Assembly (NCBI GenBank): GCA_017399625.1
Contig: JAFQBT010000041.1
Span: 1 to 39,435 of the forward strand
DNA length: 39,435 nt
Reading direction: 5' to 3'
From: Oscillospiraceae bacterium
Lineage (GTDB): Bacteria > Bacillota > Clostridia > Oscillospirales > Ruminococcaceae
Shown here: positions 1,021 through 33,372 of the stretch, piece after piece
How the letters are laid out: each line of letters starts with the position of its first letter
Position numbering within the stretch: position 1 is the first letter of the stretch
The notes under the pieces: generated by a model
Told to the model about the DNA's origin: nothing
Databases searched by the model: none
The model's input: only the letters and a program-made list of their open reading frames with translations
Position numbers and translations under genes: made by a program

Positions 1021-2055
1021 ATGCCGTACACAGTAAAATCAAGTGAAAAAACACGCAAATCTGGTGCAGATGGAGAAACAAAAGCTTTACTATATCTTAT
1101 GAACTTCCGAAGTGATAGTGATGAGATTCATTATTTCATCGTTGATTTTTTTAATGATCTTACTGGTATGGATCGTTTTTCTACAAAGCTATGGGATATT
1201 CAATCTAAGGCAGCAAAAAACAACTCGCCTAAAGCTATTGGTAAAGAATTGGTCACGTTATTTAAAAACTATCTCAGTGAATTTGAATTTGCCTATTATA
1301 TTCTTTTCGTCGGTGGCGTAAGCAACACCCTCCGGATTGATGCTACATTAAATACATTCGATATTAGCAATATAACAACTTCTGCAATGCTTAAGCTGAA
1401 GGAAGGTTTAGAGGAAGAAGCAAACGAAAAAGGATATATCGATAATCAAGATATAACCGATGAAAATATTATGGATTTTCTGAGCAAAGTTCTATTTGTG
1501 ATTGACGATAAAGAACCTAGCGAATACGTAAAAGCAATCATAAAAAATCATCCTGGTATTATTCCTGAAAAACAAATTCTTGATGCCATTTTCAATGAAC
1601 TTAGTGAAGAACAATCCGGAAAGAAAAATAGCAATGTTGAAGGAATCACCATTCAAACAACTGATGAAGCACTCAATTATTGCCGACACTTAACTAATAA
1701 TGAAATTCGCTTATTTGTATTGCAACGCATAATAAATAGAAACCCTGTTGAGAAAGGAGTCCCAACATCATTTATTCCTATTTACAACACGTGGGTACCT
1801 GAACATCAAAAAGATATGCTTGATGAGTGCAAGCAATCCTTATGTCGAGCTCTCTTTAATAAAAATGCGGCCAATTCTTTTTGGGCGCTTTTTGAAAGCA
1901 TATATGACACTATTGTCAAGTACCCGCAATACGATGTTCAACAAATATATCTTTCTATTGATAACGGTGTAAAAAATTCCTCCCCTGATTTTGATATACT
2001 ATCTCTCAAATACTTTATCGCTGTTGTAAAGGACGGTGTACAGGATGATAATTAA
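1021..2055 (+). CDS. Hypothetical 344-aa protein, possible nuclease component of a two-gene ATPase cassette
   Basis: The ATG is preceded by AAGGAGTGAG at a good distance. I do not recognise a named family with certainty. The first 70 residues (GADGETKALLYLM, then an acidic FFNDLTG, then WDIQSKAAK) have the spacing of a PD-(D/E)xK nuclease core with a QxK-type last motif, as in DUF4297/Cap4-like nucleases. This is inference by eye. The rest is predicted mostly helical, with many charged residues and no signal peptide or membrane segment, so a cytoplasmic protein. Its last 11 bases overlap the start of the downstream SMC-like ATPase, which points to translational coupling and a shared complex. 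Pairs of an SMC-like ATPase with a nuclease or sensor are common among anti-phage systems, including the ABC-three-component group, but no specific system can be assigned. Confidence 0.75.
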   Translation: MPYTVKSSEKTRKSGADGETKALLYLMNFRSDSDEIHYFIVDFFNDLTGMDRFSTKLWDIQSKAAKNNSPKAIGKELVTLFKNYLSEFEFAYYILFVGGVSNTLRIDATLNTFDISNITTSAMLKLKEGLEEEANEKGYIDNQDITDENIMDFLSKVLFVIDDKEPSEYVKAIIKNHPGIIPEKQILDAIFNELSEEQSGKKNSNVEGITIQTTDEALNYCRHLTNNEIRLFVLQRIINRNPVEKGVPTSFIPIYNTWVPEHQKDMLDECKQSLCRALFNKNAANSFWALFESIYDTIVKYPQYDVQQIYLSIDNGVKNSSPDFDILSLKYFIAVVKDGVQDDN

Positions 2056-3652
2056 GCGAACTGCAGTTGGTAACGGAACAGAAGCTTTTGTTGAAAGTAA
2101 ATATGTTGAAGGATTAAACATTATTTCTAGCGATGATAACAACAAAGGAAAGACTATTGCAATTCAATCTATGATGTATGCCTTAGGTAATGATCCTACT
2201 TTTCCTACGACATTTGACTATAAAGATTACTATCACTACATAGAATTCGAAGTAAATGGAACGCTCTATCAACTTTGTCGTAACAATAGTAGTTTTATTT
2301 TAAAACACGATGATGTTTTAATGGTTTTTGATAGTGTATCTGAATTAAAACGATATTGGACTAAGCACATTTTCAGATTGCCACAAATAATTAAAAACCA
2401 AATTTCAAAAATCGTAGATCCCGTACTTTTTCTGCAACTCTTTTTTATCGGCCAGGACAAAAAGGATACATCAAATATTTCTCACTCTGGTTTATACAAC
2501 AAGCAAGATTATATCAATATGTTGTTTGATATATGTGATGCCAGTGGTATTGAGCTCGATGAAGAAGAAATCAAAAAAATAAAAGATCGGATTAAGCATT
2601 TAAAAGATGAACGAGATATTTTACTTAAACAGCATAAAATTTTGAAATCACAAAAGCCCCCCATTAGCTACCTCAGTTCCGCCAATGACCGGGCAACTTT
2701 TGGAAAGAAGATTGATGCTCTTGAGAAAATAAACTCTAAAATTGCTGAACTACGAAAGGCACGAAATACAGCCGCAACAAGAAAAGCAAGATGGGAAACC
2801 ACCCTAAAGGAGCTTCGTTCTTTAAACCGAACCATCGATAGTGGAGAATTGCGTTGTATGGATTGTGATTCAACAAACATTTCTTTTAGCTCATCCAAGA
2901 AAAATGGGTATGCATTTGATGTCTCATCAGTCGATATGAGAAACGAAATAATTGCATCTATTAAAGAAAAAATTGAGACATACGATGAAGAAATTGAGAA
3001 ACTTGCATCCCTAATCACAGAAGCACAAGATGAATTAACCAGTTTAATGTCCGAAGAAATCATCACGCTTGAATCGCTAGTAGCATATAAAGAAGATATT
3101 TTTAACGCGGCTGATGCAGAATCTCGAATTCGTGAAATCGATGATCAAATTGCCACATTGAATTCCCAATTACAGATAAATGCAAACACAACGCAATCGA
3201 AAAAAGACAAACAGAACAGCATCCTAAATTGTATCACTCAGATTATGAATGACACATACCAAGTGATTGACCCAACTGGAAATTTGTATTTCGATGGTCT
3301 ATTCACCAAAAGAGATGAAACGTATTCAGGTAGTGAAGCTACGGTATTTCATCTCGTAAAGCTTTACGCAATCTGTAAGGTTATTGGTCATACTTATCCT
3401 ATAGTTGTAGATTCCTTCAGAGCTGAGGATTTATCAACTGCAAAAGAAGCAATCGTAATAGATCTCTATTCGAGTATTCCTAACCAAGTTATTTTCACAA
3501 CAACATTAAAAACTGAAGAGCTTGGAAAATACGATAAAATTCGGAATATTCATCATATTGATTATAAGGACCATATTGCAAGTAAAATGCTGACAAGTGA
3601 TTATTTGCCAGAGTTCAAGCGAATTATGTCCTCATTATCTATCAACGTCTAA
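2045..3652 (+). CDS. SMC/Rad50-like ATPase with central CxxC, partner of the upstream gene
   Basis: This cytoplasmic ATPase has the layout of Rad50/RecN-type proteins. A P-loop lies near residues 29-38 (DDNNKGKT, lacking the usual first glycine), followed by long coiled-coil segments (about 170-270 and 295-380). Between them is a single CMDC motif near residue 277 that resembles a zinc hook. A signature-like SGSEA is near 430, and a Walker B-like YPIVVDS is followed by an acidic pair. Start choice: a GTG at 2036 would sit on top of the ribosome site, so the ATG at 2045 (AAAGGA upstream) is preferred. It overlaps the end of the preceding gene. The family resembles ATPases of ABC-three-component and similar defence cassettes. 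A third component is not seen here, so a two-gene version or a distinct system is possible. Confidence 0.82.
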   Translation: MIIKRTAVGNGTEAFVESKYVEGLNIISSDDNNKGKTIAIQSMMYALGNDPTFPTTFDYKDYYHYIEFEVNGTLYQLCRNNSSFILKHDDVLMVFDSVSELKRYWTKHIFRLPQIIKNQISKIVDPVLFLQLFFIGQDKKDTSNISHSGLYNKQDYINMLFDICDASGIELDEEEIKKIKDRIKHLKDERDILLKQHKILKSQKPPISYLSSANDRATFGKKIDALEKINSKIAELRKARNTAATRKARWETTLKELRSLNRTIDSGELRCMDCDSTNISFSSSKKNGYAFDVSSVDMRNEIIASIKEKIETYDEEIEKLASLITEAQDELTSLMSEEIITLESLVAYKEDIFNAADAESRIREIDDQIATLNSQLQINANTTQSKKDKQNSILNCITQIMNDTYQVIDPTGNLYFDGLFTKRDETYSGSEATVFHLVKLYAICKVIGHTYPIVVDSFRAEDLSTAKEAIVIDLYSSIPNQVIFTTTLKTEELGKYDKIRNIHHIDYKDHIASKMLTSDYLPEFKRIMSSLSINV

Positions 3653-4456: not shown

Positions 4457-4490
4457 CTATTGGATTGTAAAGCAATTTACAATCCAATAG
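4457..4490 (+). promoter_or_regulatory. Perfect 15-bp hairpin directly before the Rhs ribosome site
   Basis: CTATTGGATTGTAAA (4457-4471) pairs perfectly with TTTACAATCCAATAG (4476-4490) across a GCAA tetraloop of the stable GNRA class. GAGGAGG follows at once, then the ATG at 4505. In RNA it would sit against the ribosome site, so it could stabilise the 5' end or modulate translation. As DNA it could be an operator. Confidence 0.7.
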
Positions 4491-4504
4491 AGGAGGATGT
4501 AAAA

Positions 4505-7500
4505 ATGAAAATTTTCAGGAAATTACTTAGCTTGTTTTTGGCATTTTTGTTCGTACTGCAATTATTTCCGCTTAGATATATCGGAAATTTTGCAGTCGAA
4601 GCATTTGCTTTGGAAAGCAATCAAAACATAAATGGGTACAATTTCGATATTCCAAAAGAATCGGATAATACCATTAATGTGGAAATTCCGGAAACCATCA
4701 TTGAACCGGAAGGATATTCATATAAAGAAACTGCATATGAGTATGAGTACGATGAAGCATTGAGCGAAAATGAAAATCGCTTTTTGGAAATAATCTTCGA
4801 AAACACATATTTTTCAGAACTTACAAATGATGAAAAAGCTTTTGTCTGCTCGTACATATCTTTGACAGAGGCTCAGTTGCAGACTCTTGAGCAAAGGGAA
4901 TATCCTCTTATTGCTTCAGCAAATATAGTTGATTTAACTGAGAAATCCAAAAAAACATTTAATGAAATACTTTCCTTAAACCTTTCTCCCAATACCATAA
5001 AGATTATATTGGATGAATTTCATATTTATTTTGAAAACGTCAATGATTCTATTATAAATACAGCAACAGACACTACCATAAGAAATTATCTTTTAAATGG
5101 TTACAGTGTTAATGAAGCAGTGAATGCTTATGCTATCAGTCAAACAATAGATATCGAAACGGATGAACTTTTAGTTTGTGAAAACAACGAAGATATCGAA
5201 ACATCTTTAAATAAAAGCGAAGTTGCACAAATAGAAGAATTTGCTTCTATTTATTCTGTCTCTTCTGCCGCAATTCTTTCTTATGTGGAGGAAAATAGCC
5301 TTACTGCAGCAGAAATCGAAAACGTATCATCGAAAATTGATGCAAATATCGGTTCTATATTAGAAGAGTATTCCACAACTTCCACATCTGACGAAGCAAC
5401 TTATGAAATCTATTCTCCATACTATTACAGGTACGATGAAAATGAATTTGTGTCTCTTAATACCGGAGACATAACTTATGAAACTGTTGATTACACCTTA
5501 CCCGGTAAAAATGGATTGGACTTGGTTATTGCAAGAAGATACAATACGTTAGATTCAAAAATATACGAGATCTATCCTTACTCTTATTATAATGGTGACA
5601 TCTATCACCAAACGGTTCAGAAATTTAACAATAACCACAACGTTAATATGTTTGGTTTGGGACAAGGATGGAGTTTTTGTTTTTCATCTATCGAAAAAAT
5701 GGGTGGTAATAAATATGTTCATTTAGCAAACGGCGGCGTTTATCAAATACATTCACAATCCGGAGAACCTCTAAGCCTCCTCGGATATGAATATGATGAT
5801 GTCCGAATTTCAATTTATGGTTATGAATATGATAGTAATTATTTCCCACTATATAAATTGGAATATTATGACGGCATATGTGAATATTTCACTCATGATG
5901 GTAAATTAAGTAAGATAGAAGACAGGTATGAAAACTCACTTACTTTTGCATACAGTACCCAAAACGGTTATCCTCATATTACTATCACTGATACATTTGG
6001 TCATAACACCGTCATTTCAAGCGTATCAACAGAAACCGGTCACAAAATGACTGTCGCTCTTTCTAATGGAGAAGAGTTAATATATAATGTTATTGAACAC
6101 GAGAGTGGAGTGAGCGGCATATCATCATATAAAGATGCCGCAGGAAACGAAACCAATTATAGCTATACTTTGTTTGAATGCAGCTATTATAATAATTATA
6201 ATAATACTTATTTTGCATTAAGTACCATAACTCATCCAACCTATGCTAAGACTATATTCGATTACGAAATCGAAAGAACGAATACTTCTGCTTGGTATAG
6301 CTATTATACCGAAAACGTTCCGAAACTCTCCTTGCGTAAGGACCTTATTTCGGAAGAAGCATATAATATAATTGAATATGAATATATCAACGGCACTTCA
6401 CTAAAACATACATATCGTACAATTATTACTGACGCAAATGAAGTTACTAAAGATATTACTTTTAACTGGAAACATAAAATAGATCACGTTAAAACGACTA
6501 TGAACGACTCCGTAATATTGGAAACCGATTACAGTTATCGTTTAATAAACAGTCATACTGATAGTGAAACGAATCGTTACTATAACTCCAACGCAAATGA
6601 CTATTTAGAATCAACCGTAAGGTATATACGCAATTCCGAAAATCTTATTGTCCATACATGGTCAACTTATGCTGATAGTTTTGATTATGATTCTGAATAT
6701 TTAATGTCAAATAGCTATCACAATTATGGACTCATTTCATCTAAAAGTTATAAAACTAATCCTGATACAGCCGTTAAAATAAAAAACACGTATAATACAA
6801 ACTGCAAAAACATTATTAAATCTGAAATACGTGTAAACGATTCTGTTATCCAAACAACAGACTACACTTATGATAATTTTGGAAATGTTCTTACTGCAAA
6901 AACATATGGTACGGATTCATCAACCTATGAACTCACCGAATACACCTATCAAAATGGCGCATATCTTACTCAGGAAAAACATTCTTCTGTAAAAACATCC
7001 GACGGAACTTCTGCAATCGGCACCTCTGGAAGCGCTGACGGCATTATCATTTTTAATTATACCTATGATAATTCCGGTCGTCTTTCTTCCTCTAAAGATG
7101 GAAAAGGCAATATGACAGAGTATGAATATGACGCCCTCGGAAATATAACCAAAATCACAAATCCGGATAACACAACCGTTACCTACACCCGCAACTATTC
7201 AGACAACTATGTCATCGTCAAGGACGAGAACGGCGCACAAATAAAATACACCTATACTCCCCTCGGTCTTGAATATGAAACAATCGATGTTTCAACCGGA
7301 AACGTCATAACAAGGAAAGAATACGATAACAGTTCCCGCCTTGCTAAAGTTTCCGAATTTATTCATGGCTCAGTAACAGAATATACCTACGATTACCTCG
7401 ACAGAATTACTTCCGAAACTGTAAAACAGGGAAATACCGTTCTTTCCCAGACTCTTTACAGCTATGAATATGCTGTCGAAAACGGAACCTACAACAAAGT

Positions 7501-10500
7501 CACTAAAACTGTTGTCGGCGACAGCAACGCTCCTTCCGTTGTTACAACCGAATACACCGATAAACACGGAAACATTGCAAAAACCGGCAAAATCATTGAC
7601 GGTGTTGAATATTTCGATACCTATACCTATGACTATGTTGGAAACAATACCGGAGTTCTTACCGCGGCAGATTCTGCAAAAGGTCTTGATTCGACCTCCG
7701 CGTATGAATATAACTATAACGGTCAGGTAACAAAAACAACCAACGCAAACAATCAGTACACAACAAATACATACAACGAATTCGGAAGGCTTGTTACATC
7801 AACCGACTATGCCGGAACTCCGACCAACTACACTTACGATTCTCTTGGCAGACTTACAAGCCAAACCATAACCATCGAAAACGGCAAAACTTCCACAACG
7901 AAATATGAGTACGATGCCGCAGGCAACATTATCCGCGAATGGAACCAGGTTAATGCGGTCGGTTCTTCGGCACAATGGAACAAAACCGAATATACCTATG
8001 ACAGCCGCAACCGTCTTACTTCCGTAAAACAGTACAACGGCAGCACCCTTGCAAGCACCACCAGCTATACTTATGACGGTGTTGGCAACGTTCTCACCAT
8101 GACCTCCGGCGGAAAAACTACCACCTACACCTACGACAGGTTCGGCAATGTACTTACGGAAAAGGACGCTCTGAATAGGACGAAAACCTACACCTACAGC
8201 GACCTTGGCCGGCTTGAATCCGTAACCGACAGAAACGGCATCGAAACCGAATATTTCTATGATGCTCTCGGAAGAATAATAAAAACCGAAGCAACCGATG
8301 GCACAGATACCGAAACTCAGACATTCACTTATTCCAAAACCGGGCAGGTGCTTTCCAAAGCGAATGACAGCTCCACAACCACATACACTTACGACGATTT
8401 GGGAAGAATTGCAAGCATATCCGAGTTTTCGGAAAGAATTACAGAAATCCCCGAAGATCCGGAACCGGTGGAACCTGAACCGGACCCGAACCCTGAACCC
8501 GGCGCTGAGTTTACGGTAACGCTTAATCCTAATGGCGGAAGGATAAATGCCTCAATCGGCAATGTAACGATTACAGTTCAAAACGGAGATACATATTCCC
8601 TTCCGACCCCAGCAAGGCTTTCGTACACCTTCAATGGCTGGTATTACGGAACTGAAAAAATCGAAAACGGTGATACCGTTAACCTTACAATGAATGCAAC
8701 TTTTGTTGCAAACTGGTCTTCCGGTTCCGGAATAACCGACCCGATTACTCCTCCACTTATCGAAATGGGTGAAGAAGATGAGGAAGAATCTTCGACATTT
8801 TCCCTTGAAGAAACAGCCGAAACAGACGAAACCACCGCAAGTTATTGTAAAAATTATACATATGACCTCGCCGGAAATCGTACAGGATTCACTCTTGAAA
8901 AAGGCGGCGAAACGGTTCATAATATTAGTTACAGTTACGATAACCTGAATCGTCTTTTGACCGTTTCTGAAAACGGAGCCATAGAGGCAACCTATACATA
9001 CGATACAAACGGTAATCGTGCTTCCCTTACACTCGGCAACGGGGTAACTACGACTTATTCGTACAACCTTGCGAACTGGGTGACGAACCTTTCCAACAAG
9101 AATAGCAGCGGAGCAACTCTTTCCAGTTATGCATACACTTACTATGCTTCGGGTAATCAAAAGAGCAAAACCGACAACACCGGAAAAGTAACAAGCTATG
9201 TTTATGACGGTTTGGGTAGGCTTACGAGCGAGAGCGAAATCGGCGGAGTAACGCTGAGTTACACTTATGATTCCGCAGGTAACCGCACGAAACTCACCGC
9301 AACGGGAACGGAAAGCTATGTAATCGATTACACTTACAACAATGTAAACCAGCTTACAAGCGAAACCAAAACCGAAAGCGGAGCGACTGAAACCACAAGT
9401 TACACCTATGATGCCAACGGAAACATGCTTTCCAAAACATCACCCGAAGGAACTCAGGCGAATACCTACAATAACCTGAACCAGCTTGTTTCTTCCATTA
9501 CTGCCGGTGTTACAATCAGTTACACCTACAACGTTGACGGAATCCGAACCTCGAAAACAGTCGGAACAGCCACCACAGATTACCTTCTTGACGGCGGAAA
9601 CGTAGTTGCAGAATCACAAAACGGCGATGTAACAGCTACTTATTTGCGCGGTGCAAATCTTTTGAGCACGGATAACGGAACGAGCACGAGCTATTATCTT
9701 TTTAATGCTCACGGAGATGTAACCGGACTTACTAACGGTGCTCAAACAATCGTAAAGAGCTATGATTACGACGCTTTCGGTAATGAAAAAGAGCCAAGTG
9801 CAACTGACGATAACCCCTTCCGTTACTGCGGAGAATATTTCGACAAAGAAACCGGAACTTACTATCTCAGGGCGAGATATTACGACCCGGTAGTTGGTAG
9901 ATTTACTTCTCAAGACAGTGTTCGTTATACCGAAAGGTCTTTGCCGACCGGAAACGTAATTGACCCGCTTAGTCTTAACTATTACACCTATTCCGCAAAC
10001 AACCCGGTTATGTATTGTGACCCAAGCGGTAATGTTTGGGAAACAATCTTTGATATTGTATCACTCGGTGCAAGTTTCATAGAAGCTCTCGAAGACCCAA
10101 CCGATGGTTGGCTTTGGGTCGGTGTTGCCGCAGATGCAGTTGACCTTATTCCTTTTGTAACAGGTGTTGGAGAAGTTACAAGAGCTATAAGAATTGCTGA
10201 TGCCGTCGATAATGCTCACGATGCAGGAAAAGTTGTTAATGTTGCAGGGGATGCGGTAAAACACGGAAAAAAGTATAATCCTCAGGGTAAGCTCATTGAT
10301 GTAAATGAATCAATGAGTGAATATTCAAGGAAGTATCAAACTTTTGTTACTGGACAAACAAATAAAGCTTATCTTTTAAACGGTGTAAAATTCGACGGTA
10401 TAACACCTGAAGGTATCTTAATGGAAGCAAAGGGGAAATACTCGAATTTTGTAAACAAACAGACAGGTAATTTCTATTCATGGTTTAAAGGCGCTGATAG

Positions 10501-10654
10501 TTTGATTAATCAAGCTAATAGACAGCTGGAAGCAGCTAATGGCAATCCTATACATTGGTATTTTTCTGATAAGATTTCCATGGAAGCTACTATAAAATTA
10601 TTTGAGAAAAATGAAATTACTGGTATTGTTTGCATATATATGCCGATGGAATGA
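4505..10654 (+). CDS. Secreted Rhs/YD-repeat polymorphic toxin with Tox-REase-5-like C-terminus
   Basis: This 2049-residue protein starts at the ATG behind GAGGAGG. An N-terminal signal peptide (KLLSLFLAFLFVLQLF) is followed by about 280 residues of acidic helical sequence. A DUF6531-type entry (LNTGDITYETVDYTLPG) begins near residue 318, followed by roughly 1400 residues of YD repeats. Inserted near 1335-1404 is an InlB/Flg_new-type repeat (NGGRIN, YTFNGWYYG) between acidic linkers. The Rhs core motif (YYLRARYYDP, then GRFTSQD) is near 1785-1802. The last 120 residues (GVKFDGI, EAKGKYSNF, QANRQLEAANG) look like a Tox-REase-5 restriction-endonuclease-fold toxin. The YD shell is known to encapsulate the toxin tip in related proteins. 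The next gene, ten bases on, is the expected immunity gene. A second tip lies downstream. Confidence 0.92.
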   Translation: MKIFRKLLSLFLAFLFVLQLFPLRYIGNFAVEAFALESNQNINGYNFDIPKESDNTINVEIPETIIEPEGYSYKETAYEYEYDEALSENENRFLEIIFENTYFSELTNDEKAFVCSYISLTEAQLQTLEQREYPLIASANIVDLTEKSKKTFNEILSLNLSPNTIKIILDEFHIYFENVNDSIINTATDTTIRNYLLNGYSVNEAVNAYAISQTIDIETDELLVCENNEDIETSLNKSEVAQIEEFASIYSVSSAAILSYVEENSLTAAEIENVSSKIDANIGSILEEYSTTSTSDEATYEIYSPYYYRYDENEFVSLNTGDITYETVDYTLPGKNGLDLVIARRYNTLDSKIYEIYPYSYYNGDIYHQTVQKFNNNHNVNMFGLGQGWSFCFSSIEKMGGNKYVHLANGGVYQIHSQSGEPLSLLGYEYDDVRISIYGYEYDSNYFPLYKLEYYDGICEYFTHDGKLSKIEDRYENSLTFAYSTQNGYPHITITDTFGHNTVISSVSTETGHKMTVALSNGEELIYNVIEHESGVSGISSYKDAAGNETNYSYTLFECSYYNNYNNTYFALSTITHPTYAKTIFDYEIERTNTSAWYSYYTENVPKLSLRKDLISEEAYNIIEYEYINGTSLKHTYRTIITDANEVTKDITFNWKHKIDHVKTTMNDSVILETDYSYRLINSHTDSETNRYYNSNANDYLESTVRYIRNSENLIVHTWSTYADSFDYDSEYLMSNSYHNYGLISSKSYKTNPDTAVKIKNTYNTNCKNIIKSEIRVNDSVIQTTDYTYDNFGNVLTAKTYGTDSSTYELTEYTYQNGAYLTQEKHSSVKTSDGTSAIGTSGSADGIIIFNYTYDNSGRLSSSKDGKGNMTEYEYDALGNITKITNPDNTTVTYTRNYSDNYVIVKDENGAQIKYTYTPLGLEYETIDVSTGNVITRKEYDNSSRLAKVSEFIHGSVTEYTYDYLDRITSETVKQGNTVLSQTLYSYEYAVENGTYNKVTKTVVGDSNAPSVVTTEYTDKHGNIAKTGKIIDGVEYFDTYTYDYVGNNTGVLTAADSAKGLDSTSAYEYNYNGQVTKTTNANNQYTTNTYNEFGRLVTSTDYAGTPTNYTYDSLGRLTSQTITIENGKTSTTKYEYDAAGNIIREWNQVNAVGSSAQWNKTEYTYDSRNRLTSVKQYNGSTLASTTSYTYDGVGNVLTMTSGGKTTTYTYDRFGNVLTEKDALNRTKTYTYSDLGRLESVTDRNGIETEYFYDALGRIIKTEATDGTDTETQTFTYSKTGQVLSKANDSSTTTYTYDDLGRIASISEFSERITEIPEDPEPVEPEPDPNPEPGAEFTVTLNPNGGRINASIGNVTITVQNGDTYSLPTPARLSYTFNGWYYGTEKIENGDTVNLTMNATFVANWSSGSGITDPITPPLIEMGEEDEEESSTFSLEETAETDETTASYCKNYTYDLAGNRTGFTLEKGGETVHNISYSYDNLNRLLTVSENGAIEATYTYDTNGNRASLTLGNGVTTTYSYNLANWVTNLSNKNSSGATLSSYAYTYYASGNQKSKTDNTGKVTSYVYDGLGRLTSESEIGGVTLSYTYDSAGNRTKLTATGTESYVIDYTYNNVNQLTSETKTESGATETTSYTYDANGNMLSKTSPEGTQANTYNNLNQLVSSITAGVTISYTYNVDGIRTSKTVGTATTDYLLDGGNVVAESQNGDVTATYLRGANLLSTDNGTSTSYYLFNAHGDVTGLTNGAQTIVKSYDYDAFGNEKEPSATDDNPFRYCGEYFDKETGTYYLRARYYDPVVGRFTSQDSVRYTERSLPTGNVIDPLSLNYYTYSANNPVMYCDPSGNVWETIFDIVSLGASFIEALEDPTDGWLWVGVAADAVDLIPFVTGVGEVTRAIRIADAVDNAHDAGKVVNVAGDAVKHGKKYNPQGKLIDVNESMSEYSRKYQTFVTGQTNKAYLLNGVKFDGITPEGILMEAKGKYSNFVNKQTGNFYSWFKGADSLINQANRQLEAANGNPIHWYFSDKISMEATIKLFEKNEITGIVCIYMPME
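8834..9907 (+). repeat. Direct repeat inside the Rhs gene, copy 1
   Basis: These 1074 bases, from just after the acidic linker to the GRFT of the Rhs core, match 11,405-12,478 at a constant offset of 2571 with no net insertion or deletion. By eye the identity is around 90% or more. Beyond GRFT the two sequences become unrelated. Confidence 0.9.
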
Positions 10655-10663
10655 GGAAATAAA

Positions 10664-11362
10664 ATGATTCAAACATACACATTAATATTTCGGATGCGTC
10701 CACGATACTTATTAGATAACAAAATTATTGAAATTGTTCAAAATATTATATCGGAAATAAACAATATTCTTTATGACGGTAATCTTAAACTTTTCGAACC
10801 AGCATACAAAAAAACAGCATGCAAAGAAGTCGATTTAACTTTTGAACACCTAAACAAGCTTCTCAATAAAAAAAGCAATCGCACGAATTATGAGTTGGGA
10901 ATACCTTATATATTCAGCTTTTTCTCTTCTCTTAAGGAAGAAGAAAGTATGAAAATATCATTTTTACTAGGAGGAAGTGGGGGAGACTTCAAAAACAATG
11001 TAATTGTTTATTTGTCACAAAATATTTTTGAAGAGAATGATAATTTTCAAAAAGTTTGTAATCTTTTCAAAACTATCATTAATATCTCTTCTCCATATTA
11101 TGCTTTTATGGCAAATAGTTTAAATGATAATCTATCCACATCGTATTGGAAAGAAAAACCAACTTTTGTACACACTTTGAATTATTTTGATGAAGAAACC
11201 GCACAAAAAATAGGTATTGAAAAATTAAGAAAATTACAAGGTGCAGAAGAGGCTGACGGCGGTTGGTATTTAAAATTATTGGATGAACCTCTTGATGTGG
11301 ATAATCCTTCACACTTGGAAAAACAAAAACAAATAAGTGAGTTTCTCGGATTAACGGATTAA
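10664..11362 (+). CDS. Immunity protein for the Tox-REase-5 toxin (Imm52-like)
   Basis: The 232-residue cytoplasmic protein starts ten bases after the toxin stop, with its ribosome site (GAGGAAAT) overlapping that stop. Position and spacing make it the cognate immunity protein that binds and neutralises the nuclease tip in the producing cell. The C-terminal part (VHTLNYFDEETAQKIG, GGWYLKLLDEPLD) resembles the Imm52 family, which is commonly paired with Tox-REase-5. That assignment is from memory of the family pattern and is less certain than the immunity role. There is no signal peptide, as expected. A strong terminator follows, closing the toxin-immunity unit before the orphan Rhs tip. Confidence 0.8.
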   Translation: MIQTYTLIFRMRPRYLLDNKIIEIVQNIISEINNILYDGNLKLFEPAYKKTACKEVDLTFEHLNKLLNKKSNRTNYELGIPYIFSFFSSLKEEESMKISFLLGGSGGDFKNNVIVYLSQNIFEENDNFQKVCNLFKTIINISSPYYAFMANSLNDNLSTSYWKEKPTFVHTLNYFDEETAQKIGIEKLRKLQGAEEADGGWYLKLLDEPLDVDNPSHLEKQKQISEFLGLTD

Positions 11363-11371
11363 TTTTTGAAA

Positions 11372-11398
11372 AAGCCCCTCTTTTGAGGGGCTTGCTTT
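11372..11398 (+). terminator. Terminator after the first toxin-immunity unit
   Basis: AGCCCCTC pairs with GAGGGGCT across TTTT, followed by TGCTTT. The same hairpin recurs after the second immunity gene near 13,893, so each cassette carries its own copy. Confidence 0.85.
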
Positions 11399-11401
11399 AT
11401 A

Positions 11402-13282
11402 TCCACCGCAAGTTATTGTAAAAATTATACATATGACCTTGCGGGAAATCGTACAGGATTCACTCTTGAAAAAGGCGGCGAAACGGTTCATAATATTAAT
11501 TACAGTTACGATAACCTGAATCGTCTTTCGACCGTTTCTGAAAACGGAGCCATAGAGGCAACATATACATACGATGCAAACGGCAATCGTGCTTCCCTTA
11601 CACTCGGCAACGGGGTAACTACGACTTATTCGTACAACCTTGCGAACTGGGTAACGAACCTTTCCAACAAGAATAGCAATGGGGCGACTCTTTCAAGTTA
11701 CGCATATACCTACTATGCTTCGGGTAATCAAAAGAGCAAAACCGACAACACCGGAAAAGTAACAAGCTATGTTTATGATGGTTTGGGCAGGCTTACAAGC
11801 GAGAGCGAAAGCAATGGCGTAACATTAAGTTACACCTACGATTCCGCAGGCAACCGCACCAAGTTAACCGCAACGGGAACGGAAAGCCATGTAATCGATT
11901 ACACATACAACAATGTAAATCAGCTTACGAGCGAAGTTAAAACCGAAGGCGGAGCGACCGAAACCACAAGTTACACCTATGATGCCAACGGAAACATGCT
12001 TTCCAAAACATCACCCGAAGGTACTCAGGCGAACACATACAACAACCTGAACCAGCTTGTTTCTTCCATTACGGCAGGAGTAACATCGAGTTACACCTAC
12101 AACGTTGACGGAATCCGTACCTCGAAAACAGTCGGAACAGCCACAACAGATTACATTCTTGACGGTGGAAACGTAGTTGCAGAAGCTCAAAACGGCGATG
12201 TAACATCAACATATCTCCGCGGAGCGAATCTTTTGAGCACGAGCACGGAAGATGAAACAAGCTACTACATTTTTAATGCTCACGGGGATGTAACCGGACT
12301 TACCAACGGTGCTCAAAATGTTACGAAGGCTTACGATTACGATGCTTTCGGTGTTGAGAAAGACCCAAGTGCAACGGACGAAAATCCATTCAGATATTGC
12401 GGCGAGTACTTTGACAAGGAAACCGGAACATATTACCTCAGAGCGAGATACTACGACCCGACAATAGGACGCTTTACACAACAAGACACCCATTGGAACA
12501 CCGCAAATATGATTTATGGGGATAATCCCAATAAAATCAATGAACGGGAAGATGCGCTTGGATTAAAGGCATATACATACACGCCGAGCATAAGTTCTAT
12601 TATGCAGAGCGGGAATTTGTATGTATATGGAATAAACAATCCGATATATTATTTTGATTATTTGGGAACTTATTCATTACCAAATTGGGTGAAAATAGGA
12701 ATAGGAGTAGCAGTTATAGGTGGTTTAGCTGTAGCTACCGCTATGACTGCTGGAACAGCGGCTATCATATTAGGAGCTGCATTAAATGGAGCAATTGTTG
12801 GAGGAGTTTCCGGTGCTGCGTTGGGTGCGATAACTGGTGGAATAGATGATGGCTTAAACGGAGCTATAGATGGAGCTTGTTCTGGGTTCATGTCTGGTAC
12901 TATCATTGGAGGAATTAGTGGAGCAGCTTCTGCTGGCATAAATGTTTCAACAAGTACAACATTAGTAGAAGGTAAAGCTCACGGCTCTATTTTACATAAA
13001 TTTGCTTCAAATTATGAAGCAGGTAAAATGGTATCTTCAGGGCAATATACAAAAATAGGACTTAACAAATCTTTAAAAAAATTAGGATTAAACGGAGGAC
13101 GCTTAAGACCTGATGTTGTAGGAATAGGAAGAAAAGTACCCAACTTATTAATAGAGGTTGTTAGCCCTAAGCAAAGTATCAAATATATAGACAATAAAAT
13201 GGCAAAAATGGTTTTACAAAATCCTGGTGCTAAAGGAAAAGTTGTAAAGTTGATTAGAGAGGTTGTGATCCTTCTTGAATAA
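11402..13282 (+). CDS. Orphan Rhs core and toxin tip (silent cassette, no proper start)
   Basis: The frame is open from about 11,402 and matches the main Rhs protein from residue 1444 onward, but there is no signal peptide, no N-terminal shell and no ribosome site. The first possible start is a TTG at 11,783 inside a YD repeat. After the core (YYLRARYYDP, GRFTQQD) the sequence differs. A glycine-zipper-like hydrophobic stretch (VAVIGGLAVATAMTAG and on) is followed by about 100 residues with RPDVVGIG and LIEVVSPKQS, suggestive of a PD-(D/E)xK-type nuclease toxin of unrecognised family. A terminator separates it from the upstream operon. It is best read as a displaced tip that can be recombined into the main gene through the shared 1.07 kb. 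Expression as it stands is doubtful. Confidence 0.82.
   Translation, partial: STASYCKNYTYDLAGNRTGFTLEKGGETVHNINYSYDNLNRLSTVSENGAIEATYTYDANGNRASLTLGNGVTTTYSYNLANWVTNLSNKNSNGATLSSYAYTYYASGNQKSKTDNTGKVTSYVYDGLGRLTSESESNGVTLSYTYDSAGNRTKLTATGTESHVIDYTYNNVNQLTSEVKTEGGATETTSYTYDANGNMLSKTSPEGTQANTYNNLNQLVSSITAGVTSSYTYNVDGIRTSKTVGTATTDYILDGGNVVAEAQNGDVTSTYLRGANLLSTSTEDETSYYIFNAHGDVTGLTNGAQNVTKAYDYDAFGVEKDPSATDENPFRYCGEYFDKETGTYYLRARYYDPTIGRFTQQDTHWNTANMIYGDNPNKINEREDALGLKAYTYTPSISSIMQSGNLYVYGINNPIYYFDYLGTYSLPNWVKIGIGVAVIGGLAVATAMTAGTAAIILGAALNGAIVGGVSGAALGAITGGIDDGLNGAIDGACSGFMSGTIIGGISGAASAGINVSTSTTLVEGKAHGSILHKFASNYEAGKMVSSGQYTKIGLNKSLKKLGLNGGRLRPDVVGIGRKVPNLLIEVVSPKQSIKYIDNKMAKMVLQNPGAKGKVVKLIREVVILLE
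11405..12478 (+). repeat. Direct repeat, orphan copy of the Rhs core
   Basis: Partner of 8834-9907. The reading frame is intact throughout, so purifying selection or recent duplication has kept it translatable. The substitutions are scattered and mostly at third positions. Confidence 0.9.
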
Positions 13283-17243: not shown

Positions 17244-18728
17244 GTGAGTGATTTACAGCTGTCAATCAAAAAAATAAAGAATATTCAATCTTGCGATCTT
17301 GAATTACCTCTAGAGAAGGGGCTATATGCAATAGTAGGTGACAATGGGTGCGGTAAAAGCACATTAATGTTGGCGATGTCTTTACTTGTTAAGCCATCAT
17401 CGCGCTTTAGTTTCCAACCGCATGATTTCACAAATGATTCACTTATTAAACTAACGGTTGATGGTATAACTGACCATTGGTTCGTGTCAAATGGAGAGTG
17501 GTCAACTTCGGTGACAAAAAGCAGTCCTAAACATAATACACACAATTATTATAACGGATTTTATGAAGGAAGTATTTTTTTTGGTTCACGGTTTTATGAT
17601 TATAATAACGTTCAAAGTTTTTTGAAAAAAGATGATTTTGAATCTATGATTAGAGAGGCGGATTCGTTTGTAACAGAGACATTAAGTTATATACTGCATG
17701 GTGACAAAAAACATTATAAGCAACTATATAAAGTAAAAACTAAAAAAGTAGCGGCAGAAAACGGCTTTAAGGGTATACCATATTTTTTGAAATGTGGAGA
17801 TTATTATACAAGTCAATACAACATGAGTAGTGGAGAAAGTATGCTAATTTCGTTAATAGATTTTATAAACAATCTGACTGAGCGAAATCGTTATACTTCT
17901 GAAAAACCCTTACTTTTTTTGATTGATGAGGCAGAGTTGGCGCTACACCCTGCAGCGATTAATAGGTTGGTAACACTATTTAATGAGATGCTTAAAAAAT
18001 TAAACTTGGTTGTCATTTTTTCAACGCATTCTACTGAAATAATTAATCGAATTTCTCCTAAAAACATATACATGCTTGAGAACAACTCTGGTATAATGTC
18101 CTCATTGAATCCATGTTATCCAAATTATGCTATACGAAATCTTTACGTTCCTAATGGTTATGACTTTATCATTTTGGTCGAGGATGAACTAGCAAAAGCA
18201 GTCATAGAACGATTGATTCGTTCTAACAACATATGTACAAGCCGGTTATGGTATGTTGTTCCCAGCGGGGATTGGGCGCAAACACTTAAATTGCAAAATG
18301 ATATTCAAAAAAGCGGATTGCTCGGAATCGGGAAACGTGTAATAAGTATTCTTGATGGCGATGTTAAAGAAAAAGCAGAGGTAAAAGCTGAAGAATTACA
18401 TTTGTCATTATTCACCTGTTTACCGATTAAAAGCGTAGAAAAATATTTGTATAAAAAATTGATATCTGAGTATGATGCTAGTTTCATAAAACTACTTGGC
18501 GACAAATATTTTACGCTTAGATCATTACACGATATTATTGCAGATTACAATGAAAATTATCCAAACGAAAGTGATAATAATGGAAAAAAACTTTATAAAA
18601 TGATTTGTTCCAATTTAGATAAAGTTGGTATCTCATCGGAACGTTTTATACAATATCTTTGTGAGGATATTTGCCAATATGAAAACTTTAGTGCTTTTAT
18701 AGGAACACTGACACGGTTGCTTTCATGA
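17244..18728 (+). CDS. OLD-like AAA ATPase with TOPRIM-type C-terminus
   Basis: The GTG at 17,244 is preceded by GAGAGGAG. The 494-residue cytoplasmic protein has a Walker A motif (GDNGCGKST, near residues 33-41) and an ABC signature-like MSSGES near 200. A Walker B motif follows (LLFLIDEAELALHP), then a switch FSTHS. The C-terminal third carries FIILVEDE and later ISILDGD, the acidic residues expected of a TOPRIM nuclease domain. This is the arrangement of OLD-family proteins, which are ATP-dependent nucleases often used against phages, alone or with a partner. No partner gene (for example a UvrD-like helicase as in Gabija) is adjacent, so a stand-alone system is likely. It has its own terminator and possibly a shared operator type with the sigma operon. 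Confidence 0.87.
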   Translation: MSDLQLSIKKIKNIQSCDLELPLEKGLYAIVGDNGCGKSTLMLAMSLLVKPSSRFSFQPHDFTNDSLIKLTVDGITDHWFVSNGEWSTSVTKSSPKHNTHNYYNGFYEGSIFFGSRFYDYNNVQSFLKKDDFESMIREADSFVTETLSYILHGDKKHYKQLYKVKTKKVAAENGFKGIPYFLKCGDYYTSQYNMSSGESMLISLIDFINNLTERNRYTSEKPLLFLIDEAELALHPAAINRLVTLFNEMLKKLNLVVIFSTHSTEIINRISPKNIYMLENNSGIMSSLNPCYPNYAIRNLYVPNGYDFIILVEDELAKAVIERLIRSNNICTSRLWYVVPSGDWAQTLKLQNDIQKSGLLGIGKRVISILDGDVKEKAEVKAEELHLSLFTCLPIKSVEKYLYKKLISEYDASFIKLLGDKYFTLRSLHDIIADYNENYPNESDNNGKKLYKMICSNLDKVGISSERFIQYLCEDICQYENFSAFIGTLTRLLS

Positions 18729-32224: not shown

Positions 32225-32416
32225 TTCTTTGACGGCTCCGTTGACGTAAAGGATGCTTACTATGCGCGTCTTGTTGCGGCGAAGCTCATCAAGCCCACCG
32301 ATGAGCAGCGCCTCGTCGGCGACGCTGACCTCGATGGAAGAATAACCGCTCTTGATGCGAACATAATCCGCAAATTTGCCGCAAAAATCATCGCCGAACT
32401 CCCGGTGAAAAAATAG
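32225..32416 (+). pseudogene. Dockerin-domain fragment (5'-truncated gene)
   Basis: A 63-codon open frame ending in TAG encodes the tail of a two-repeat dockerin. The first calcium loop is cut (FDGSVDVKDAYYARL) and the second is complete (GDADLDGRITALDANIIRKF). Dockerins tether enzymes or surface proteins to cohesins. There is no start or ribosome site. The truncation point coincides with the IS30 relic, so the insertion or a deletion beside it removed the rest of the gene. Confidence 0.8.
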
Positions 32417-32435
32417 AAAAGCGCCGGCGCTCATT

Positions 32436-32569: not shown

Positions 32570-32598
32570 TTGACTTTATAAAGCTATGCGGCTATAAT
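32570..32598 (+). promoter_or_regulatory. Promoter of small RNA copy 1
   Basis: TTGACT (32,570-32,575) and TATAAT (32,593-32,598) are spaced by 17 bases, close to consensus. No protein-coding start follows; a terminator comes about 110 bases later. Confidence 0.75.
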
Positions 32599-32604
32599 GA
32601 AAAA

Positions 32605-32712
32605 GGAATAAAGATATTTTTGTTTTTCCAAAAAAACTGCGGGAAAAACTGATTCGTCATATCGTTCCTTTCAACGGGAAATCCCCCTTTTCGGAGAAAA
32701 GGGGGATTTTTC
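32605..32712 (+). ncRNA. Candidate small RNA, copy 1 (about 108 nt)
   Basis: The predicted transcript begins GGAA seven bases after the -10 box. Hairpin 1 pairs GTTTTTCC (32,622-32,629) with GGAAAAAC (32,642-32,649). Hairpin 2, CGTT-CCTTTC-AACG (32,663-32,676), exposes a pyrimidine loop complementary to Shine-Dalgarno sequences. Hairpin 3 is an intrinsic terminator (AAATCCCCCTTTTC pairing with GAAAAGGGGGATTT). There is no open reading frame of note. It matches 33,250-33,358 almost exactly. I do not recognise a known RNA family. Confidence 0.65.
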
Positions 32713-32727
32713 CTTTTTTGAGCACAA

Positions 32728-32756
32728 AAAACACCGCCCGGAAACGGACGGTGTTT
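32728..32756 (-). terminator. Terminator of the Xre gene
   Basis: On the minus strand AAACACCG and CGGTGTTT pair around a GC-rich centre, followed by a T-run. Confidence 0.8.
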
Positions 32757-32783
32757 CAAGCTGAAAAGATTTATGCAAACGCT

Positions 32784-33107
32784 TTATCGGTTTTTCGAAA
32801 GAAAATGGTCGATCAGAATAAAAACGGCTTTTTGGTCCTCTTCCGAAAGTGCTGCAAGCTTTGAAGAAAGGGATTGGATATCGGCGGGATTTTGCTTTCC
32901 GGTGAGTATATAATCGGTGCTGACCTCCAGAATATGGCTCAGTTTCACAAGGTTATCAATGCGGATTGCCTTGTTTCCCCGCTCCATGTTGGAAATCATC
33001 TGGATGGAAACGTTCATTTTTTCGGAAAGCTGCTCCTGAGTGAACCCAAGGCGCTTTCTGCAAAACTGAATTCTGCTGCCGATTTCGTGTAAATCCAATT
33101 CTTTCAT
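32784..33107 (-). CDS. Xre-family regulator between the two small RNAs
   Basis: The 107-residue protein has an Xre helix-turn-helix (IQFCRKRLGFTQEQLSEKM, then SIQMISNMERGNKAIR) and a C-terminal helix pair with charged residues (SSKLAALSEEDQKAVF). It is probably a dimeric repressor or activator. The ATG at 33,107 has GGTGA just upstream; a GTG at 33,116 is the alternative. It runs opposite to the two small RNA units that bracket it. Its own promoter would lie in the AT-rich stretch at 33,150-33,200, next to the second small RNA promoter, so cross-regulation is possible but not shown. Confidence 0.88.
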   Translation of the reverse strand: MKELDLHEIGSRIQFCRKRLGFTQEQLSEKMNVSIQMISNMERGNKAIRIDNLVKLSHILEVSTDYILTGKQNPADIQSLSSKLAALSEEDQKAVFILIDHFLSKNR

Positions 33108-33215
33108 TGCTTTCACCGCAACCCGATTTCCGGGAATTTTGTCTGTGCTTCGGGATTAATTATACTTACAGTTTAATTATATGTGTTTAAAGGTTAAATT
33201 ATAAGCACCCATAGA

Positions 33216-33244
33216 TTGACTTTATTAAACTCAGGATGTATAAT
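33216..33244 (+). promoter_or_regulatory. Promoter of small RNA copy 2
   Basis: TTGACT (33,216-33,221) and TATAAT (33,239-33,244) are spaced by 17 bases. Most of the spacer differs from that of copy 1 while both boxes are identical. Confidence 0.75.
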
Positions 33245-33249
33245 AAAAT

Positions 33250-33358
33250 GGAACACAGATATTTTTTGTTTTTCCAAAAAAACTGCGGGAAAAACTGATT
33301 CATCATATCGTTCCTTTCAACGGGAAATCCCCCTTTTCGGAGAAAAGGGGGATTTTTC
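33250..33358 (+). ncRNA. Candidate small RNA, copy 2 (about 109 nt)
   Basis: It has the same layout as copy 1: GGAA start, GTTTTTCC/GGAAAAAC hairpin (33,268-33,295), CGTT-CCTTTC-AACG hairpin (33,309-33,322) and the same terminator. From AGATAT to the terminator tail it differs from copy 1 by about one extra T and one G-to-A change, while the first bases are more divergent. Confidence 0.65.
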
Positions 33359-33372
33359 CTTTTGAAAACGCA

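Follow-up and report, generated by a model that had tools for sequence, protein, structure and literature searches.

A predicted Xre-controlled small RNA gene with a second copy apparently outside Xre control in an Oscillospiraceae bacterium

Two near-identical units flank an xre gene in the DNA analyzed here. Our preferred reading, probable though by no means secure, is that copy 2 encodes a trans-acting small RNA (sRNA) that is repressed by Xre and blocks translation starts and that copy 1 has been freed from Xre. It is drawn from comparisons of the nucleotide sequences and the proteins that they encode.

RESULTS

Two putative RNA units flank an xre gene

The window, i.e., the whole stretch of 39,435 nucleotides that was analyzed, is contig C25 of a 2.1-Mb draft genome (G000, here called the own genome) that is 86.9% complete. 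The features of the locus are as follows.

32570 to 32598, + strand: promoter of copy 1, TTGACT-17-TATAAT (promoter scan), operator arms lost (operator matrix score, 0.34)
32605 to 32718, + strand: RNA of copy 1, a derived duplicate, predicted ends (genome self-match, alignment of the copies, folds)
32657 to 32672, + strand: conserved 16-nt core of copy 1, TCATATCGTTCCTTTC (core search and alignment with relatives)
32676 to 32712, + strand: intrinsic terminator stem-loop of copy 1 (scan, 17 pairs; compensatory pairs in relatives)
32784 to 33116, − strand: xre gene, encoding a 110-aa HTH_3 repressor-like protein (Pfam, structure similarity)
33206 to 33238, + strand: predicted Xre operator of copy 2, half-site CACCCATAGATTGA and inverted half-site TTAAACTCAGGATG (top-scoring site of the window, both strands)
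33216 to 33244, + strand: promoter of copy 2, TTGACT-17-TATAAT, divergent from xre (scan; same place in relatives)
33250 to 33363, + strand: RNA of copy 2, in the position common to relatives, predicted ends (alignment of the copies, folds, relatives)
33303 to 33318, + strand: conserved 16-nt core of copy 2, TCATATCGTTCCTTTC (core search and alignment with relatives)
33322 to 33358, + strand: intrinsic terminator stem-loop of copy 2, same stem as in copy 1 (the scan lists the inner part, 33330 to 33351, 8 pairs)

Each unit is about 113 nt long, and both lie on the + strand. The promoter scan of the window gave 7 promoter-like sites, compared with a mean of 2.5 in shuffled sequences, and both unit promoters matched the consensus at 11 of 12 positions. 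In the alignment of the copies, the part from AGATAT to the terminator showed two differences, one indel in a T run and one G/A exchange. The promoter boxes, terminators (found as terminator-like stems at 32676 to 32712 and 33330 to 33351), near-identical bodies with about two differences, and xre gene between the units on the opposite strand had all been reported in a preliminary description of this DNA and were indeed recovered. A third full copy was not found in the own genome; after the matches of 100 and 96%, the remaining pieces were 43 nt or shorter. The left neighbor is a pilus locus ending in a sortase gene, the right neighbors are a DUF4430 gene and ksgA, and the units overlap none of xre, the DUF4430 gene, and the sortase gene.

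A dockerin-like 3′ gene fragment was observed beside copy 1 (32230 to 32420), and 10 other places in the own genome match it at 70 to 90% identity. Since this fragment is repeated elsewhere in the genome, the left flank of copy 1 looks rearranged. Elsewhere in the window, the frames at 1021 to 3652, 4460 to 13282, and 17244 to 18728 are ones that we take to resemble a two-gene ATPase system, RHS-repeat proteins, and an OLD-like ATPase.

Homologous units share a conserved core

Close xre genes among 15 genomes of the genus were restricted to the own genome and G222, G390, and G358 (75, 74, and 71% identity); the next best xre gene of the genus had 40% identity (E = 1.8e-14). G222, G390, and G358 each carry one unit, which is divergent from xre. 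Its promoter combines ATTGACTTTATTAAACT with TATAAT or TATACT, and the core TCATATYRTTCCTTTY lies between a variable middle part and the terminator. By a sequence model for the RNA unit, only these four genomes had full units (E = 1e-29 or better); the model was built from the rows of the same four genomes, and its informative part is the absence of units elsewhere among the 15 genomes (next match, 8.7e-5 or worse). A direct DNA search of 396 genomes of the family gave no full-length homologue. Matches with an E value of 0.001 or better occurred in 19 of them, the own genome included, and the 12 matched loci inspected (11 in relatives and 1 in the own genome) held only terminator-like, coding, or chance pieces. 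Plasmids (3 records) and phages (5 records) gave only pieces of 37 nt or shorter, and an exact 42-nt pattern had zero matches in viral contigs, where Xre relatives reached at most 46% identity (among the best 80 of 121).

None of the 4,227 Rfam families matched the window at the gathering threshold. The best subthreshold matches were STnc560 (35.5 versus 55) and PyrR (30.7 versus 54), and for L157 to L159 and L190, which are loci with related xre genes (see below), only tRNA was above threshold. The proposal that the units are promoter-driven small RNA genes outside known families thus gains support from the sequence, the Rfam result, and the homologous units in three other species.

Promoter, terminator, and the 16-nt core are conserved across species, for the core in just three lineages. 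The sequence complementary to the core reads like a Shine-Dalgarno (SD) sequence plus a start codon. Outside the units, there were two exact matches to the core, at G358:C4 and at G398:C41, the latter in a genome without a unit, and therefore the core sequence is not exclusive to the units. The RNAs of G358 and the window have homologous 5′ halves (0 of 500 shuffles reached the score), with loss of an 8-bp hairpin in G358, and the alignment of the 5′ half of the G222 RNA was not above shuffles (106 and 215 of 500). Since the 5′ half changes fast between species, the near-identical bodies of the two copies are better read as the result of recent duplication or gene conversion.

The units had also been described as free of open frames. 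This held in so far as no + strand frame of at least 20 codons starts within the unit bodies: all such frames touching the units have their start either in the promoter or before it or else at the 3′ end or beyond. It did not hold for a shorter frame of 16 codons in copy 2, which was seen by eye and runs from an ATG at 33248; copy 1 has no in-frame ATG there. If the units encoded micropeptides, this frame, which begins at the likely start of copy 2, and the GTG frames through the unit in G222 (51 codons) and G390 (33 codons), which have a 4-nt SD, would be the candidates. However, the GTG frames are absent from G358 and the window copies, no reading frame is conserved across the units, and none is common to copy 1, copy 2, G222/G390, and G358, which makes a coding function very improbable.

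The opposite strand offers another reading, in which a small hydrophobic protein has its ribosome site and start at GAAAGGAACGATATG and is regulated by the + strand RNA as antisense, as in a type I toxin-antitoxin layout. Indeed, an SD and an ATG at good spacing make up the complement of the core, and in copy 2 an open frame beginning MMNQFFPQFFWKNKKY comes after them. But the frames, compared by eye, are wholly different between species (MMIVKFINLKNRTNRTFF in G222 and MISLLFF in G358), and in the scan the interval between each unit and the next gene on the right had no minus-strand promoter, so that we consider this reading highly unlikely. Membership of the units in the type I toxin-antitoxin systems was rejected on the same observations, unconserved opposite frames and no minus-strand promoter at either unit.

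The predicted folds are dominated by the terminator

The preliminary description had seen three hairpins in each unit, one of them with CCTTTC in its loop. Only the terminator is certain. It dominated the fold of each copy, with folding energy z scores of −2.65 and −3.27 with the terminator and ordinary values of −0.60 and −0.64 without it. Moreover, the consensus fold of the units consisted of the terminator alone, with three compensatory pairs, and left the core unpaired. The 8-bp hairpin (GUUUUUCC/GGAAAAAC) depended on the fold; it was present in the MFE structure of copy 1 and in that of copy 2 folded from GGAAC and absent from the MFE structure of copy 2 folded from 33252. The 4-bp CGTT-CCTTTC-AACG hairpin was in no MFE, centroid, or consensus fold. 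Removal of the terminator gave an alternative pairing, UUCCU/GGGAA, at its place, and GGAAC or GGAAU paired with GUUCC of the core when the full 5′ end was included. In the predicted folds, the mean unpaired value of the core was 0.51 and 0.45 in the two copies, 0.43 to 0.51 in the copies and G222/G390 together, and 0.88 in G358.

A trans-acting RNA with three hairpins and CCTTTC in the loop of a conserved one would fit G358, where CATT...AATG stands in place of CGTT...AACG, a compensatory exchange of one pair seen by eye. But the stem is broken in G222 and G390 (TATT...AAAG), it is in no predicted fold, and the first hairpin is lost in G358; we therefore give this structure little credence. 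The SD-complementary segment itself stands; it is the conserved 16-nt core, which the consensus fold leaves unpaired, and not the loop of a conserved hairpin.

A putative Xre operator overlaps the promoter of copy 2

The Xre protein matched HTH_3 of Pfam with 54.2 bits (cutoff, 23), and its profile was similar to the solved structures of ICEBs1 Xre (E = 7e-12), P22 C2 (3.2e-9), and SinR (1.4e-7). The recognition-helix region, NVSIQMISN, is identical in five Xre proteins. A contig scan with five xre proteins gave 39 related xre loci, many of them from ruminant-gut MAGs. In 37 of the 38 loci read (L157 to L193), with the best-scoring box pair chosen per locus, the inverted half-sites CACCTATAGRTTGA and CATCTATAGTTTAA were found around the −35 box of the xre-divergent promoter, which has the form CACCTATAGRTTGAC...TTAAWCTATAGRTG-TATAAT. 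The operator-promoter was absent from L194 (32% identity); the operator analysis and the xre tree omit this locus and L195 (33% identity, unread). The consensi of the two half-sites, derived apart, were nearly equal (CACCTATAGATTGA and CATCTATAGTTTAA), and arms within one locus matched slightly better than arms from different loci (24 of 2,000 permutations reached that). The inverted half-sites are most likely the Xre operator.

An operator matrix was built from the 34 loci without RNA, which score at least 26.9 (median, 41.7). Copy 2 scored 31.3, the highest score on either strand of the window, where the next independent site had 3.8, and G222 and G390 scored 30.5. G358 scored 18.2, under the lowest training locus at 26.9. 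Copy 1, with 0.34, has kept the −35 and −10 boxes and lost the operator arms. The identical boxes with diverged spacers had been taken to argue for selection on transcription; this argument has to be replaced, the spacer being half of the putative inverted-repeat operator, which copy 2 has retained and copy 1 has lost. When up to 3 mismatches were allowed, the pattern ATTGACTTTATTAAACT occurred at 14 sites in the own genome, both copies included, versus 4 for the reversed control, and the closest other site (C5:7256, 1 mismatch) has no −10 box. Xre is likely to be the regulator of the RNA gene and not a bystander.

In the mechanism that we propose, copy 2 would be a gene for a small noncoding RNA, and the Xre repressor, transcribed divergently from it, would target this gene. 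Judging from the shared operator, Xre would bind the two inverted half-sites, which flank and overlap the −35 box and spacer, and shut the promoter. If Xre were relieved, the promoter and terminator should yield an RNA of about 113 nt, whose core, UCAUAUYRUUCCUUUY, may pair with ribosome-binding sites and start codons and block translation, as its complementarity suggests. Since the promoter of copy 1 kept its −35 and −10 boxes and lost the operator, this duplicate would supply the same RNA outside Xre control as well.

The same switch precedes protein genes in most relatives

In most other xre loci, the operator-promoter precedes unrelated protein genes, which were classified by eye as encoding lipoprotein-like proteins, Cys-rich proteins of about 70 to 80 aa, a pseudopilin-like protein, and others. 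A Pfam search with 10 of these cargo proteins gave HTH_17 and YAcAr above the cutoff, YcaO below it, and no match for 7. The RNA-bearing xre genes (window plus three species) form one clade with a support of 100/99.

Among L157 to L193, a nearly invariant operator-promoter stands before differing protein genes across Clostridia, as if cargo had been exchanged. An SD-led frame after the promoter was found in none of L159, L170, L176, and L184 (which has 56 bases there); L170 has a frame of 80 codons, and in L176 a stop follows after 14 codons. L155/L168 (G182) and L176 each have an interrupted cargo frame after the Xre promoter. In L190 (about 1800 to 1925, minus strand), the leader has no SD-led ATG frame in its first 250 nt, and its fold contains a terminator-like hairpin; the terminator scan lists none in L190. 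This locus perhaps has a second, unrelated RNA cargo.

The RNA might also mark an empty cargo slot: a protein gene formerly driven by the switch would have been lost, leaving the promoter and terminator with an RNA of little function. The protein genes behind the same promoter in most other loci, the failure of the G222 5′ half to align with the others above shuffles, and the single origin of the RNA cargo are in line with this. Conservation of the 16-nt core and of the terminator, the latter with compensatory changes, and the duplication of the whole unit argue against it, and we regard an empty slot as unlikely.

Locus history and the pilus neighborhood

Copy 2 is the older copy; its place divergent from xre is the same as in the relatives. 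Copy 1 is situated behind xre, without the divergent arrangement. The gene order ksgA-DUF4430-RNA-xre of G358 is that of the window. Eleven of the 13 DUF4430 loci of the genus inspected have no module-like sequence behind DUF4430; two of these 11 are those of G222 and G390, in which the module lies beside the pilus sortase instead, and one has 205 bases to the contig end. In the stretch that begins at the RNA terminator and extends almost to the xre stop, G222 and G390 were 98 to 100% identical in 50-base steps (L033, 1298 to 1797, versus L034), with flanks of only 54 to 90% before and 20 to 72% after this stretch. This points to a recent transfer of the RNA-xre pair as a cassette; gene conversion may be the other source of the identity. 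A tRNA gene follows the pair in G222. Phage or ICE genes were not seen among the neighbors read.

The pilus sortase was present in 8 of the 15 genomes of the genus, namely in 4 of 4 with the RNA and 4 of 11 without it. A link between RNA and pilus is suggested by this co-occurrence, which is not decisive. Two convergent pilus operons, which differ in type, enclose the RNA-xre pair in L153 (G390:C41).

Target predictions

When the sets comprised just 33, 19, 19, and 20 start regions, the best pairing energy was beyond the 5% shuffle limit in G000, G390, and G358 and not in G222, and the best gene of G000 was a nonpilus gene. With a larger background (226, 214, 187, and 194 start regions), no gene was first in all four genomes. 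Also, no full-length site complementary to the core was common to different genomes among the four. A full-core wobble pattern matched 8 sites in them, five of which were the RNA genes; the other three never occurred in two genomes.

The last sortase gene of pilus operon B (sortase B) reached −25.0 kcal/mol in G000, with a perfect complement of 12 nt. Its energy was reached by 0 (G000), 2 (G222), 7 (G390), and 1 (G358) of 500 shuffled cores, a null that leaves general SD complementarity unaccounted for and concerns a gene picked after the scan. Against the larger background, its rank was 12 among 214 start regions in G358 and 19 among 187 in G390. It was missing from the lists of G000 and G222, for which another start had been chosen (as seen for G222); with its energies, it would take about the third place in G000 and a place lower than 28 in G222. 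A similar SD is present at the sortase of G398, which is without the RNA. Outside the RNA genes, GTTGAAAGGAA occurs at two places only in G000, one of which is the SD of sortase B. We treat sortase B as a candidate target and only as a lead.

DISCUSSION

Like the ICEBs1, P22 (C2), and SinR repressors, Xre has an HTH_3 domain, is similar to them in sequence, and has an inverted-repeat operator, predicted here, in a divergent intergenic region. Unlike them, it has one neighboring putative target, which differs between species.

RsaE/RoxS and FsrA are C-rich sRNAs of Firmicutes that pair with SD sequences. IsrR is reported to be another one. The RNA described here likewise has a C/U-rich segment complementary to SD sequences; unlike RsaE/RoxS, FsrA, and IsrR, it has no Rfam match, and its conserved core also spans the start codon.

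In the SgrR-SgrS, OxyR-OxyS, and GcvA-GcvB pairs, the sRNA is divergently transcribed beside the regulator gene (PMC4423775). Copy 2 and the RNAs of the three relatives are also adjacent to, and divergent from, a regulator gene. Our system differs in that it belongs to Clostridia and has an Xre-type repressor, in that most relatives use this repressor and operator to drive protein genes, and in that a second RNA copy without an operator lies beyond the regulator gene. An sRNA gene beside a regulator gene is a known layout; here, the same switch serves protein genes in most relatives and an RNA in one clade. A connection of an sRNA with a sortase-type pilus also has a parallel, since an sRNA of Streptococcus pneumoniae is reported to modulate pilus-1 (PMC8465756); here, the tie between RNA and pilus consists of neighborhood and a weak pairing lead only. 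Among the papers listed in searches of the openly licensed PMC literature, titles and abstract openings contained no such Xre-switched sRNA system, and it is from this result and the Rfam result that we take the system to be novel.

A wider view, which we put forward tentatively as possible rather than probable, is that gut Clostridia have in Xre and its operator-promoter a portable plug-in switch and that the cargo behind it is exchanged between species; this cargo includes lipoproteins, small Cys-rich proteins, a pseudopilin-like protein, and a YAcAr/SLOG protein. The cargo of one clade would be a new small RNA that was duplicated and partly released, giving a regulated and an unregulated supply of translation-blocking RNA beside pilus operons. 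The operator rule from 37 loci makes the whole Xre family testable by one binding assay. Moreover, the system lets one ask how bacterial sRNA genes arise: by filling an existing switch and then duplicating out of its control.
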